Assembly: GCA_022827945.1 (NCBI GenBank)
Contig: JAJEIT010000017.1
Location: 1 to 64,000 of the forward strand
DNA from: Dehalococcoidia bacterium
Lineage (GTDB): Bacteria > Chloroflexota > Dehalococcoidia > Tepidiformales > Tepidiformaceae
Direction: 5' to 3'
Length of the DNA: 64,000 bases
The notes under the pieces were generated by a model that made no database searches, had not been told where the DNA came from, and saw nothing but the letters and a program-made list of their open reading frames with translations. How positions within the stretch are numbered: position 1 is the stretch's first letter; the number at the start of each line of letters is the position of its first letter. This document shows positions 9,989-14,807 of this stretch, piece after piece. The position numbers and the translations under genes are program-made.

Positions 9989-11305
9989 CTGGGCCGTTAC
10001 TGGCGGCGGGCGCGTCGCGCCTACTACGGCTGGTGGGTGCTGGCGGCCTCGGTGGTCTCGGTGGCGCTGGCGGCAGGGCTCTCGTTCTGGTCGTTCGGGC
10101 TCTACATCGACCCGCTTGAGCAGGAGTTCGGGTGGTCGCGGTGGGAAGTCTCGGGCGGCTTCTCGATCGCGCTGCTGGTGGGCGCCCTCGCATCGCCGCT
10201 CATCGGACGGGGGGTCGACCGTTACGGGCCGCGCCGGGTCGTCATCCTCGGGGCGGTGCTGACGGCGGGGAGCTTCCTGCTGCTGGCGACGACCAGCTCT
10301 CTCTGGCAGTGGTTCCTCTATCAGTCCATCGCGGCGGTCTTCCGCAACATGATGTTCTTCATCCCGTTCCAGACGCTGGTCTCGCGCTGGTTCGACCGGA
10401 AGCGGGGGCTGGCCGTGGGCATCCTGGGGACGGGCTTCTCCATGGGCGGGTTCATCGTGGTGCCGATCCTGCAGGCCGTGATCAACGCGGTGCAGTGGGA
10501 GGGCTCGTTCGTCGTCTCGGCGATCGTGACGGTGGCGGTGGTCGCGCCGCTCGCACTCCTGCTCATCCGGGACCAGCCCGCGGACAAGGGGCTGCAGCCG
10601 GACGGGGACGCACAGCCCGAAGGAGAACCGCCGAGACCCGTGGTCCTGACCGGGCTGACGGACCGGCAGGCGCTGCGGACCCCGCTCTTCTGGGTGATCG
10701 CCATCGCCCTGATGGTGTTCTTCTTCGGAATGTTCGGGTGGACCGCGCACGCGGTGCCGTACTACGAGTCGGTGGGGTACTCGAAGTGGTGGGCGGCGCA
10801 GTTGCTCGCGATCGCGGCGGGCAGCGGCATCATCACGCGGCTGGTGTTCGGCTACGTGGCCGACCGCATCTCGCGGATCGAGGTGGCGGCAATGGCGCTC
10901 TGCGCCTGCCTGACGCTGTCGATGGTGGTGCTGCTCGTGACCGGCGGCAGCGTGACGGGCGTCGTGTTCTTCCTCGTGTTCTGGTTCGTCGGCTCAAGCG
11001 GCGGACCCATGATCGAGCCCCTCCTGACGGCGCGCACTTTCGGCATGGCGTACTTCGCCTCGATCCTGGGGGCGATCGCCATCGTCTCGCAGAGCGGCCA
11101 AATCGTGAGCCCCATCATCGCAGGGGCGATCTTCGACGCGACCGGCGAGTACGACTGGGCGCTGGTGATGTTCGCGTGCTCGATGGGGCTGTCGCTCCTG
11201 CTGTACTGGCTGGCGTGGAAGCTGCCGCGCCCTGAGCTTCCCGTCGTTACCGTCGTGACGAGCGCTGAGGCGGGCGGGGAGGCCGGGCGGACAGCAGAGG
11301 CATAA
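9989..11305 (+). CDS. MFS transporter (monocarboxylate/oxalate-formate type), probable CTG start
   Basis: 438 aa from the CTG at 9989. Twelve hydrophobic segments; family features include R-P-Y-G-P-R-R between TM2 and TM3 (here D-R-Y-G-P-R-R) and W-F-D-R-K-R-G-L-A. No ATG/GTG/TTG occurs in frame until a GTG at 10037, which would remove the conserved YYGWW and part of TM1. The CTG aligns exactly with the ATG of the tandem paralogue: both encode G-x-Y-W-R-R next. Substrate is likely a small carboxylate or aromatic acid. Start assignment is inference from the paralogue; no good Shine-Dalgarno is seen. Confidence 0.85.
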   Translation: MGRYWRRARRAYYGWWVLAASVVSVALAAGLSFWSFGLYIDPLEQEFGWSRWEVSGGFSIALLVGALASPLIGRGVDRYGPRRVVILGAVLTAGSFLLLATTSSLWQWFLYQSIAAVFRNMMFFIPFQTLVSRWFDRKRGLAVGILGTGFSMGGFIVVPILQAVINAVQWEGSFVVSAIVTVAVVAPLALLLIRDQPADKGLQPDGDAQPEGEPPRPVVLTGLTDRQALRTPLFWVIAIALMVFFFGMFGWTAHAVPYYESVGYSKWWAAQLLAIAAGSGIITRLVFGYVADRISRIEVAAMALCACLTLSMVVLLVTGGSVTGVVFFLVFWFVGSSGGPMIEPLLTARTFGMAYFASILGAIAIVSQSGQIVSPIIAGAIFDATGEYDWALVMFACSMGLSLLLYWLAWKLPRPELPVVTVVTSAEAGGEAGRTAEA

Positions 11306-11318
11306 GGGGACAGACACC

Positions 11319-11324
11319 TAGAAT
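11319..11324 (+). promoter_or_regulatory. -10 box TAGAAT, probable leaderless promoter
   Basis: TAGAAT ends seven bases before the ATG of the second MFS gene, with no Shine-Dalgarno between, so this gene probably has its own leaderless transcript despite lying behind its paralogue. Confidence 0.45.
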
Positions 11325-11331
11325 CCCTCGG

Positions 11332-12591
11332 ATGGGCCAGTACTGGCGGCGGCTGCGGAATGCCTACTACGGCTGGTGGATGCTCGCCGCGTCCGTGGTG
11401 GCGGTGGCGCTGGCGGCGGGCATCTCGTTCTGGTCGTTCGGTCTTTATGTTGACCCGTTGGAGAGCGAGTTCGGGTGGTCGCGGGCGGAGGTCTCGGGAG
11501 GTTTCTCGGTCGGGTTCCTCGCGAGCGCCCTCGCGGCGCCGCTTATCGGGTGGTGGATCGACCGGTACGGCCCGCGACGGGTCATCCTCATCGGGGCTTT
11601 GCTGACAGCCGCGAGCTACGTGCTCCTGGCCGCGACGAGCGAGCTCTGGCAGTGGTTCGTGTACCAGTCCATCAACGCCGTGTTCCGCCAGATGATGTTC
11701 TTCATTCCGTTCCAGGCGCTCATCTCGCGCTGGTTCGACCGGCGGCGAGGGCTAGCAGTGGGGCTCCTGGGGACGGGGTTCTCGATCGGCGGATTCGCCG
11801 TCGTCCCCATCATGCGGATCGTGATCGAGGCGGTGCAGTGGGAGGGGTCGTTCATCGTGGCGGGCATCGTGACCGTGGCGGTGTTCGTGCCGGTCTCCCT
11901 CCTCCTGGTGCGCGATGACCCCTCGGATGTGGGAGCGGAGGTGGACGGTGACGCAACACCCGCCGATCGCCCGGCGGCGCCACGCGTGCTCACGGGGGTG
12001 ACGGTGCGGGAGGCGCTGCGAACACCACTCTTCTGGGTGGTCTCGGGAGCTCTGACGGCCTTCTTCTTCGGAATGATCAGCTGGATGGTTCACGGCATCC
12101 CCTACTACGAATCGGTGGGCTACTCGACCGAGCGGGCGGCGCTGCTCTTCTCGATCCAGGCAGGAGGCGGTGTGGTGGCGCGCCTGACGTTCGGCTACCT
12201 CGCGGACCGTATCCCCCGCATGGAAGCGGCGGCGGTGGTGGTGGCCATGTTCCTTGCGGGGGCGTTCGCGACGCTGCTGCTTACGGACGGGAGCGTCATC
12301 GGGATCGCCGTCTTCCTCGTGTTCTTCGTCGTGGGATCGAGCGGGGGGCCGATGATCGAACCGCTGCTGCTAACGCGTTCGTTCGGGCTGGCATCCTTCG
12401 GGGCGTTGCTCGGAATCATCCAGGTCATCTCTGTCCTGCACCTGGCGAGCCCGATCATCTCGGGGGCGATCTTCGACGCGACCGGTAACTACGACTGGGC
12501 GCTGGTGATGCTGATGGGCGCGATGGGGCTGTCGGTAGCGTTGTTCTGGGTGGCGTGGCGGCTGCCGCGGCCGCAGTACAGCGCGGGCTAG
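11332..12591 (+). CDS. MFS transporter, tandem paralogue
   Basis: 419 aa, twelve hydrophobic segments. It matches the preceding carrier almost throughout, including the N-terminal G-x-Y-W-R-R...Y-Y-G-W-W, the D-R-Y-G-P-R-R loop, W-F-D-R-R-R-G-L-A, and the C-terminal A-I-F-D-A-T-G-x-Y-D-W-A-L. This is a recent-looking tandem duplication with divergent central loop (about 200-225). Substrate unknown; two carriers with related but different loops could serve related substrates. Its stop overlaps the stop of the convergent selenoprotein gene by three bases. Confidence 0.9.
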   Translation: MGQYWRRLRNAYYGWWMLAASVVAVALAAGISFWSFGLYVDPLESEFGWSRAEVSGGFSVGFLASALAAPLIGWWIDRYGPRRVILIGALLTAASYVLLAATSELWQWFVYQSINAVFRQMMFFIPFQALISRWFDRRRGLAVGLLGTGFSIGGFAVVPIMRIVIEAVQWEGSFIVAGIVTVAVFVPVSLLLVRDDPSDVGAEVDGDATPADRPAAPRVLTGVTVREALRTPLFWVVSGALTAFFFGMISWMVHGIPYYESVGYSTERAALLFSIQAGGGVVARLTFGYLADRIPRMEAAAVVVAMFLAGAFATLLLTDGSVIGIAVFLVFFVVGSSGGPMIEPLLLTRSFGLASFGALLGIIQVISVLHLASPIISGAIFDATGNYDWALVMLMGAMGLSVALFWVAWRLPRPQYSAG

Positions 12592-13151
12592 CGGGTGGGC
12601 TGCTCGGAGGGCACGAAGGGAGCCAGCATTGTCGGGCCCCAGACGACCGCGCCGCCGTCGTCGAAATCGAAGAGGCTGAGGCGGTCGGCGTCGATGGGGT
12701 CGTCGGTGCCGAGGGCGACGGGGAGCTTCTGGGTGCTCCACTTCGACATGTCGAGCATGAGCTCGACGATCTGGGCCTCGGTGAAGTGCGCCTGGACCTG
12801 CTCGCGGAGCTCATCGCTGATGGCGCCGGGGGCGGTCACGAAGGCGTCGGTGAGGCGAAGCGCGACCTTCTGGTGCTCGGGCAGGTCGCTGTCCTCGTAG
12901 TAGTCGATCTTGGCGGCCATGTCCTCGTCGAGGCCTGCATCCCGGGCAACGCCCAGGCGGAGGGACATTCAGGTGAAGCACTGGTGCTGGCGTGCGCAAC
13001 GCAGCCGCACCAATTCGGTGGTGACGGGGTCGAGGCCGCTGAGTCGCACGACGGCGTCCTGGTAGGCGCCGATGGCGGCGCCCAGTCCGGGGGCGACGGG
13101 GGCGGTGGGGCCGGCGGGTTCGGGCAGGCGGCGCTCACGTACGGAAGTCAT
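12588..13151 (-). CDS. CMD/AhpD-like protein with in-frame TGA (probable selenocysteine, CxxU)
   Basis: 187 aa if the TGA at 12971-12969 is read as Sec61. ATG at 13151 has GAGGAG eight bases upstream and overlaps the stop of the preceding gene (ATGA). Before the TGA the sequence reads L-R-C-A-R-Q-H-Q-C58-F-T; after it, M-S-L-R-L-G-V-A-R-D-A-G. In the carboxymuconolactone-decarboxylase/AhpD family this is where the CxxC redox pair lies, so the frame gives C58-F-T-U61. A perfect 7-bp hairpin with a GUU loop lies 12-28 bases behind the TGA, the place of a bacterial SECIS. Otherwise the gene would be split into two fragments of one domain. It likely acts as a thiol/selenol peroxidase or reductase. 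Sec machinery is not in the window. Confidence 0.8.
12941..12957 (-). promoter_or_regulatory. Candidate bacterial SECIS hairpin
   Basis: On the coding strand CCTGGGC-GTT-GCCCGGG forms seven pairs (one G-U) closing a GUU loop. The loop starts 19 bases after the in-frame TGA, within the spacing used by SelB-dependent bacterial SECIS elements, and has G followed by U at the loop start. Confidence 0.65.
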
Positions 13152-13621
13152 GGGGTCTTCTCCTCGGGCGCGAGGACCGTTCGCAGGCCGAGCGCCAGAC
13201 GCTGGTGTTGATCGAGGGCAAGGAGGGCGCTGACGAACGCCTGCACCTCTCCGGGGCTGAAGTGCTCCAGCAGGGCGTCGATATCGCCCTGGGTGACGCC
13301 GGCGACATCGCCCACGAACTGCTCGGTGAAGGCGAGGCAGGCGCGCTCGCGGTCGCTGAAGAGGGGCGAGTCGGGCCAACCGGCGATGGCGGCGGCCTTC
13401 TCGGGGGCGACAGGAGCGCCGGGGGCGGGGCGGGCGGCCTCGCGGTCGTCGGCCTGGAGGCCGGCGATGCGGAGGCGGCAGAGCTCAAGGACCTCGGGAT
13501 CGAGGGCCCGCCAGAGCTCCCCGTGGAGGTTCGTGATGACGTCGCGGACCTCGGGGGCGAAACGCGCGAGGCGTTCGTCGAGGTCGGCGGCGAGGAGGCC
13601 GGGTTGGGCGGTGTCCGCCAT
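13148..13621 (-). CDS. CMD/AhpD-like protein without redox cysteines
   Basis: 157 aa. It has the carboxymuconolactone-decarboxylase/AhpD-like helical fold, visible in L-E-L-C-R-L-R-I-A-G-L and F-T-E-Q-F-V-G-D-V. At the position where its downstream partner has CxxU it reads A-G-L-Q-A-D-D, so it lacks the redox pair. The two genes overlap by four bases (ATGA), suggesting a two-subunit or heterodimeric enzyme in which only the second carries the Sec/Cys site. The start has TACCGT ending six bases upstream and no Shine-Dalgarno, so it is probably leaderless. Confidence 0.82.
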   Translation of the reverse strand: MADTAQPGLLAADLDERLARFAPEVRDVITNLHGELWRALDPEVLELCRLRIAGLQADDREAARPAPGAPVAPEKAAAIAGWPDSPLFSDRERACLAFTEQFVGDVAGVTQGDIDALLEHFSPGEVQAFVSALLALDQHQRLALGLRTVLAPEEKTP

Positions 13622-13627
13622 AGGGGG

Positions 13628-13633
13628 ACGGTA
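13628..13633 (-). promoter_or_regulatory. -10 box TACCGT, probable leaderless promoter
   Basis: TACCGT ends six bases before the ATG at 13621. It is divergent from a second box at 13678-13683 serving the opposite strand. Confidence 0.4.
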
Positions 13634-13677
13634 CGAAGGCGAGGGAGGCGCGTCAATGCCCCCACGGACGCTCCCGG

Positions 13678-13683
13678 TAGGAT
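13678..13683 (+). promoter_or_regulatory. -10 box TAGGAT, probable leaderless promoter
   Basis: TAGGAT ends six bases before the ATG at 13690, with no Shine-Dalgarno between. Confidence 0.45.
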
Positions 13684-13689
13684 GTGCCC

Positions 13690-14238
13690 ATGCCGGAGAA
13701 CGAACGGATTCCCGCGCCGCTCATCGTGGAGGCGCTGAAGGCGGCGTTCCGGGGGCAGCGGTCGGCCCCGGCGAAGGACGGCGAGCCCCTGGGCTGGGTG
13801 CTCTCCGTGCCGGATACGCACCAGCGCAGCATCATCGCGGAGCTGGAGGGCGACGACGAGCTGCGGCTGCTGACCTGCTCGACCGAGGACGAAGCGAACG
13901 CGATCGCGGCGGGGCTCTACATCGGCGGGGCGGAAGTGGCGATAATGATCCAGCACGCGGGGCTGTATGCCTCCGTGAACACGCTCCGTGGCGTGGGGCT
14001 GGACGGGGGGGTGCCCCTGTTCGCGCTGGTGGGCCTGCTGAGCCGCGAGCCGGAGTTGGAACCGAAGGACTCGCCGCGCTCGATGGTGCGGTTCGCGGGA
14101 CCGCTCATGGATACCTTCGAAGTCCCGCACGCGCTGCTGGAGACGCGGGACGATCTCGGCCTGATCCCCGAGTACTACGCGCTCAGCCGGGAGAGGTCGG
14201 GGCCCGCGGTCGTGTTCGTGGGGCGGGAGACGGCCTGA
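13690..14238 (+). CDS. Thiamine-diphosphate decarboxylase, PYR (alpha) subunit
   Basis: 182 aa. It corresponds to the N-terminal pyrimidine-binding half of sulfopyruvate/phosphonopyruvate-type decarboxylases: the activating glutamate lies in C-S-T-E-D-E-A-N-A-I-A-A-G, followed by Q-H-A-G-L-Y-A-S-V-N-T-L and a G-L-L-S-R-E segment. It is encoded separately from its PP-binding partner, which starts one base before this stop (TGATG), so they are coupled. Substrate among alpha-keto acids is unknown; sulfopyruvate decarboxylase is the nearest split relative I recall. A GTG at 13684 is an alternative start; the TAGGAT box favours 13690. Confidence 0.86.
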   Translation: MPENERIPAPLIVEALKAAFRGQRSAPAKDGEPLGWVLSVPDTHQRSIIAELEGDDELRLLTCSTEDEANAIAAGLYIGGAEVAIMIQHAGLYASVNTLRGVGLDGGVPLFALVGLLSREPELEPKDSPRSMVRFAGPLMDTFEVPHALLETRDDLGLIPEYYALSRERSGPAVVFVGRETA

Positions 14239-14807
14239 TGCGACCCGAGGATGTGCTGCGGGCGATCAACGAGGCGCGGGGGGATGCGCTCGTCGTGCCG
14301 ACGATGACGGCGGTGCCTGCGTGGCGCACGATCGCGCCGGAGGCACCGAGCGTGGCCTGCGTCGGCTTCATGGGCGGGGCGTCGTCGCTGGGGTTGGGGC
14401 TGGCGCTGGCGCAACCGGAGCGGCGGGTGGTGGTGCTCGACGGGGACGGATCGCTGCTGATGCAGCTCGGCTCGCTGGCGACGGTGGCAGGGGCGGCGCC
14501 GGCGAACTACACGCACGTGCCGTTCGCGAACGGGGTCTACCAGACGTCGGGGAGCCAGGGAATCCCGGCCTCGGGGTCAGTCGACTTCGCGGGGATGGCA
14601 GAGGCGGCGGGGTACGCGTTCACGACGCGCATTGAGACGCTGGAGGAGCTGCGCATCCGCTTGCCGGAGCTGCTCAGCGTTCAGGGGCCGGTACTGGTGG
14701 AGCTGGCGGTGGAGGAGGCGGAGCTGACGCCCATGACCGCGCCCGGCGGGGATCCGCTGCGGGTGCAGGTGAATCGGCTGCGGGAACGGCTCGCGAGCGG
14801 GGAGTGA
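14238..14807 (+). CDS. Thiamine-diphosphate decarboxylase, PP (beta) subunit
   Basis: 189 aa, start overlaps the upstream stop by one base. The ThDP/Mg signature is V-L-D-G-D-G-S-L-L-M-Q-L-G-S-L, followed by F-A-N-G-V-Y-Q-T-S-G-S-Q, matching the GDG...N motif with its usual spacing. This subunit binds the diphosphate while the preceding one supplies the catalytic glutamate. It would decarboxylate an alpha-keto acid. Neighbouring CMD-like genes (divergent) and MFS carriers suggest an acid-catabolism locus; the link is inference. Confidence 0.88.
   Translation: MRPEDVLRAINEARGDALVVPTMTAVPAWRTIAPEAPSVACVGFMGGASSLGLGLALAQPERRVVVLDGDGSLLMQLGSLATVAGAAPANYTHVPFANGVYQTSGSQGIPASGSVDFAGMAEAAGYAFTTRIETLEELRIRLPELLSVQGPVLVELAVEEAELTPMTAPGGDPLRVQVNRLRERLASGE

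Follow-up and report, generated by a model that had tools for sequence, protein, structure and literature searches.

In the 64,000-nucleotide stretch of DNA analyzed here (the window), one minus-strand frame, running from position 13151 down to 12588, comprises 187 codons in read-through translation and is interrupted by one in-frame TGA. The locus raises the question of whether this TGA is read as selenocysteine (Sec) and, if so, what kind of enzyme the gene and its upstream companion would form (Table 1).

Table 1. Features of the selenoprotein locus and related genes of the source genome
Feature	Position	Strand	Description and basis
CMD/AhpD-like selenoprotein gene	12588..13151	minus	187 aa, Sec at residue 61; read-through translation, Pfam, nine genus orthologues
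Sec codon TGA (U61)	12969..12971	minus	Second position of CxxU; TGA in 9/9 species, Cys in related families
Partner Cys58 codon, TGC	12978..12980	minus	Invariant across nine species
Glu46 codon	13014..13016	minus	Equivalent of AhpD relay Glu118, at -15 from the second Cys; sequence position, invariant
Arg65 codon	12957..12959	minus	Place of AhpD relay His137 (U+4); sequence position
Candidate bacterial SECIS core	12941..12957	minus	7-pair stem, GUU apical loop (12948-12950); conservation, fold, bSECIS model
Extended lower stem of candidate SECIS	12934..12963	minus	Predicted fold; minimum-free-energy and centroid structures agree
Companion gene	13148..13621	minus	157-aa protein of CMD fold lacking the Cys pair; its stop overlaps the selenoprotein start (ATGA); in all nine species
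Intergenic gap, putative promoter region	13622..13689		Between the CMD pair and the divergent TPP-enzyme pair; gene order
Divergent gene pair	13690..14807	plus	Second gene with TPP-binding domain (Pfam PF02775); adjoins CMD pair in 7/8 genus loci examined
Convergent MFS transporter gene	11332..12591	plus	Pfam MFS_1; overlaps final 4 bases of selenoprotein gene
Further TGA-containing CMD genes	L052, L054, L055, L056 (source genome G000, contigs C7, C19, C75, C75)

Decoding of the TGA codon

A preliminary description of this DNA had located the TGA in a CMD/AhpD-like frame, at the site of the second CxxC cysteine, with the same domain continuing on both sides. The read-through translation and the Pfam search agree with this, since codon 61 (12971-12969) completes the active-site motif C58-F-T-U61 and the match to the CMD domain (PF02627; 30 bits, cutoff of 23; residues 21 to 78) runs across the TGA. 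The solved structures matched by sequence are those of the AhpD-like proteins PA0269 and Atu0492; the AlphaFold model of the selenoprotein, computed with nine close homologues, has a mean pLDDT of 42, and no claim about the fold is based on it.

Eight other genomes of the genus were searched, and each has the gene, with one TGA at codon 61 and 77 to 96% identity. The orthologue records that bear names are metagenome-assembled Dehalococcoidia, one of them labelled Tepidiformaceae, and the source isolates are presumably sponge-associated for the most part, judging by their names. A read error, envisaged in the preliminary description, can be set aside because nine species, each assembled independently, share the TGA. 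Furthermore, the numbers of variable sites at the first, second and third codon positions in the nine species are 13, 9 and 34 upstream of the TGA and 27, 24 and 82 downstream of it. The pattern is coding-like on each side and, since third positions are the most variable downstream as well, the part following the TGA is selected as protein. In a scan of the window for in-frame TGAs with coding-like flanks, judged by eye, only the TGA of codon 61 appeared selenoprotein-like, the remaining ones resembling gene ends or spurious frames.

The source genome (2.85 Mb in 99 contigs, 95% complete) contains the sel genes that the preliminary description had proposed to look for, namely, selA (E = 1.1e-126), selB (E = 9e-90) and selD (E = 1.6e-102), together with one tRNA-Sec above the Rfam threshold (71 bits), whose anticodon is tca according to ARAGORN. 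The selD gene (G000:C22:122333-123268, minus strand) has an in-frame TGA of its own, reading CGGUASK, as is usual for the Sec form of selenophosphate synthetase.

Homologues carry Cys exactly at the position equivalent to codon 61 (CGFC, CKMC, CAYC and others), as the preliminary description had expected of a Sec site. Among the CMD relatives in the class, in-frame stops are nearly all TGA, with one TAG and one extra TAA seen, and five of the eight CMD-domain matches in the source genome carry one TGA each. In the four genes other than the one under study, the motifs are CRYU, CGYU, CDFU and CDFU. A peroxiredoxin-like frame with one TGA (L108; G000:C46:60057-60455, minus strand; 46 bits to the AhpC model) is a candidate Prx selenoprotein.

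A tree built from 57 CMD domains of the class shows no fewer than four changes of the Sec state. The clearest example is a second paralogue group, in which the source genus and three more genera of its family have CGYU or CGFU and the sister genus g13 has CGFC. The distribution of the machinery follows the same line: selA occurs in 9/9 genomes of the source genus versus 0/5 genomes of g13, which are 91 to 98% complete, and the best scores with the tRNA-Sec model are 70 to 71 bits in the former versus 47 to 49 bits in the latter. Some genomes (G012 and G029) keep selA along with Cys forms of other CMD groups, as is possible if other selenoproteins are present there.

These observations bear on two other readings of the codon. 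The TGA could be a true stop, leaving a 60-residue peptide, a restart at the next ATG or a decaying gene, and indeed an ATG directly after the TGA (TGAATG) opens a frame of 126 codons. However, a stop would split the active-site motif and the invariant residues flanking it, TAA or TAG never occurs at codon 61 in the nine species, purifying selection acts on both halves, the Cys homologues are continuous through this codon, and the Sec system of the genome is complete, so that we regard termination as very improbable. Even more remote is the reading of UGA as an ordinary amino acid through a changed code or a suppressor, which a read-through frame alone cannot separate from Sec and in favor of which nothing was found, whereas the companion gene itself terminates with TGA, the TGA-containing relatives align with Cys in homologues within CxxU motifs, and a dedicated tRNA-Sec(UCA) is present with selA, selB and selD.

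The preliminary description had also reported, just downstream of the TGA, a perfect 7-bp hairpin with a GUU loop. The seven pairs (12957-12951 with 12947-12941) and the loop (12950-12948) are there, but one of the pairs is U-G, and the stem is therefore not perfect. The TGA is separated from the stem by 11 nt and from the loop by 18 nt. As a single sequence, the hairpin is not more stable than expected by chance (z = -0.79, with 38 of 200 shuffles folding equally well), nor does it stand out from synonymous recodings (p of about 0.3), about 30% of which give an equally good hairpin because the gene is very rich in G+C. No match was returned by an Rfam search of the window, and Rfam is not expected to contain such a SECIS.

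Conservation at silent sites is more informative. Across the nine species, the degenerate sites in amino-acid-invariant codons are identical in 6 of 6 cases within the hairpin (codons +4 to +9) compared with 20 of 94 elsewhere in the gene, and at codon +3, just outside the hairpin, all four CTN codons occur. If each site is given a 0.21 chance of being identical, simple arithmetic that treats the sites as independent puts the expectation for six out of six at about one in 10,000. According to the bacterial SECIS model, the loop lies 16 to 37 nt from the UGA and has a G in its first two positions, the next base often being G or U (PMC13188914); the 18-nt distance and the GUU loop agree with the published bSECISearch model (PMC13188914). 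It is this agreement, together with the freezing of silent sites, that makes the hairpin credible as a SECIS.

In 33 distinct Sec-CMD sequences outside the studied gene, the hairpin loop is fixed at 20 nt after the TGA, the 7-pair totals at this offset exceed those at the other offsets tried, and pairs 1 and 3 are formed in 33/33 sequences, with five and two pair types, respectively. Since the loop of the studied gene lies at 18 nt, the covariation in the relatives backs the general rule and not the individual pairs seen here; the studied hairpin, being invariant, offers no compensatory changes. Recoding of the UGA by SelB and Sec-tRNA(UCA), aided by the hairpin located 12 to 28 nt downstream, is strongly indicated, and from the sequence evidence as a whole we consider it highly probable that the gene encodes a genuine selenoprotein. 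An annotation treating TGA only as a stop would truncate it, and in all at least five CMD proteins of the source genome would lose their active sites.

Active site and the Cys-less companion

In AhpD, the proton relay consists of Glu118, Cys130, His132, Cys133 and His137 (PMC3141380), to which Glu46, Cys58, Thr60, Sec61 and Arg65 correspond in the selenoprotein. The full AhpD relay is therefore absent: Glu46, Cys58 and Sec61 are present, with Thr60 at the place of His132/Tyr50 and Arg65 at that of His137. Among the 57 sampled proteins, position +4 from the second catalytic residue is occupied by Arg in 37 and by Asn in 6 of the 43 Sec proteins and by His in none, while the Cys proteins have His in seven cases and Arg in seven. 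The Arg-type Cys proteins cluster with the Sec families in the CMD tree and, as the sampled sequences are related, the occurrence of Arg or Asn at +4 represents a pattern and not a test.

A selenol is ionized at neutral pH. With the selenol already ionized, we infer that the relay His would not be needed for deprotonation and could be replaced by Arg65, so that Sec may make the AhpD relay His dispensable. In the mechanism that can be proposed, Sec61 would act as the low-pKa nucleophile of the Cys58/Sec61 pair, as Cys133 does with Cys130 in AhpD; it would reduce a hydroperoxide, a disulfide or another electrophile and would then form a selenenylsulfide with Cys58, which a thiol donor would reset. 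Moreover, matched Sec and Cys forms of the gene pair are available from sister genera, of which one has selA and the other does not, and they make both the Sec/Cys exchange and the role of the AhpD His directly testable.

The companion had been described from the outset as lacking the Cys pair and overlapping the start of the selenoprotein gene, and both features hold in our analysis. It was found in 9/9 species, with the ATGA overlap in eight of them. Its score with the Pfam CMD model is below threshold (16 bits); its AlphaFold model (pLDDT of 80) matches AhpD-like proteins, with a best Z of 14.8 over 127 residues (7XW1). In the second paralogue group, 9/9 species likewise have a Cys-less CMD gene directly upstream, as do three further genera and the five g13 genomes with the Cys form. 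In this second pair of the source genome (L053/L054; G000:C19:42000-45700), the next gene on the same strand encodes the alpha subunit of a ring-hydroxylating dioxygenase, with Rieske and catalytic domains. A related arrangement occurs in genome G039, where the upstream CMD partner (L034, contig C191) reads CAYD at the active site, i.e., half a Cys pair, and possibly represents a state midway between a catalytic and a Cys-less subunit.

Since AhpD-like proteins assemble into hexameric rings (PMC3141380), a mixed ring of the selenoprotein and its companion is a reasonable proposal; the translationally coupled companion would join the ring as a noncatalytic subunit. Judged from gene order, we give such a ring about an even chance. 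The companion could also be independent, as a remnant of duplication or as a distinct enzyme with no physical link to the selenoprotein. The three other Sec-CMD genes of the source genome stand alone, without a Cys-less neighbor, and the companion diverges faster than the selenoprotein (68 to 95% identity versus 77 to 97%), both of which favor independence; against it are the retention of the gene pair in 9/9 species at both paralogue groups, extending at the second one to the further genera and the Cys-form genomes, and the overlap in nearly all species. Independence is thus a serious contender, although we would place it somewhat short of even. Conservation of the Cys-less partner points to a CMD enzyme of two components. 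Literature searches on CMD tandem selenoproteins and on sponge Dehalococcoidia with selenocysteine returned nothing specific, and the pair arrangement was not found described for selenoproteins.

Neighborhood and substrate

The gap upstream of the companion is probably the promoter region for the divergent pairs, and we read the second gene of the divergent pair as sulfopyruvate-decarboxylase-like. An MFS gene lies downstream of the selenoprotein gene in 8/8 loci of the genus that were examined. Two adjacent MFS genes of the window (10037-12591) resemble a tandem duplicate, whereas the two most distant loci of the genus show a single matching region. The neighbors are largely stable across the genus and include a P450, an enoyl-CoA-hydratase-like protein, a solute-binding protein, the TPP-enzyme pair and MFS transporters, as well as MaoC, a luciferase-like monooxygenase and a zinc-binding dehydrogenase; the two most distant species lack some of them. 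No AhpC above the family cutoff was found in the source genome, where weaker peroxiredoxin matches are present, one of them with a TGA. The neighborhood thus looks catabolic, and the context lends no support to a peroxidase activity.

Since the context has this appearance, a substrate-specific role stays in play: the selenoprotein could be a catabolic or dehalogenating enzyme, comparable to the CMD-family debrominase Bmp8, whose type dehalogenates bromopyrroles through the CxxC pair, instead of a peroxide or thiol reductase. The profile of the Sec-CMD proteins matches Bmp8 at 1.8e-13, Bmp8 likewise has no His at C+4, and the neighbors (P450, enoyl-CoA-hydratase-like, MaoC, luciferase-like monooxygenase, TPP enzyme), the transporters and the dioxygenase gene beside the second CMD pair would suit such a role. 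However, the C82A mutation of Bmp8 concerns the first Cys of the CMYC pair, while the Sec occupies the second position here, and the profile match to the AhpD-like PA0269 is stronger (5e-22). A substrate-specific role is therefore, in our opinion, rather unlikely, and a redox role of the peroxide/thiol type is moderately favored. The most likely mechanism is thiol/selenol redox catalysis, probably by a heteromeric enzyme.

It is possible to hypothesize, more speculatively still, a heteromeric selenoenzyme in which catalytic Sec/Cys subunits alternate with obligate Cys-less ones, which lost the relay His since Sec suffices and which would catabolize host-derived, perhaps halogenated, organic compounds instead of serving in peroxide defense; we hold this combined picture to be improbable. 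For Bmp8, we know of no partner subunit.

Comparison with known systems

CxxU selenoproteins with a CMD domain were reported from the Sargasso Sea in 2005 (PMC1088965), as "AhpD-like 2" (pfam02627) in the GOS survey of 2008 (PMC2398784) and again, as CMD/AhpD-like selenoproteins, in a 2026 catalogue (PMC13188914). Having been known since 2005, they make the studied gene a member of a recognized type, with which it shares PF02627, Sec at the second position of CxxU, a stem-loop just downstream and the existence of Cys homologues. Different from them, it represents a genus-restricted branch, with a Cys-less CMD partner upstream and a C-terminal extension of about 35 residues.

The selenoprotein scores below the cutoff of every NCBIfam (seleno)protein model. 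With the families NF053654 (GroundWater_YciW) and NF041238 (AhpD_rel_CFYUT), it shows a similarity in the CMD core that is significant in the first case (33 bits) and weak in the second (14 bits), far below the curated cutoffs of 310 and 175 bits. Moreover, 400 genomes of the phylum were searched (E limit of 1e-18) without another member of this branch appearing. It follows from these two results that the protein is a new, genus-restricted member of the recognized type.

With M. tuberculosis AhpD and P. aeruginosa PA0269 (PMC3141380), the selenoprotein has in common the domain, the Glu at -15 and the Cys at -3 from the second catalytic position, whereas Sec replaces the second Cys, Arg65 replaces His137/His55, Thr replaces His132/Tyr50, and no AhpC neighbor was found. 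The resemblance to the debrominase Bmp8 (PDB 6OHI/6OHJ) concerns the CMD superfamily, the CxxC-type pair, whose first Cys corresponds to Cys58, and the lack of His at C+4; Bmp8 differs in that it has no Sec and in that the Cys mutated is the first of the pair. Compared with the known systems, the less expected features are the Cys-less CMD gene directly upstream and the presence of Arg or Asn in place of the AhpD relay His throughout the 43 Sec proteins sampled.
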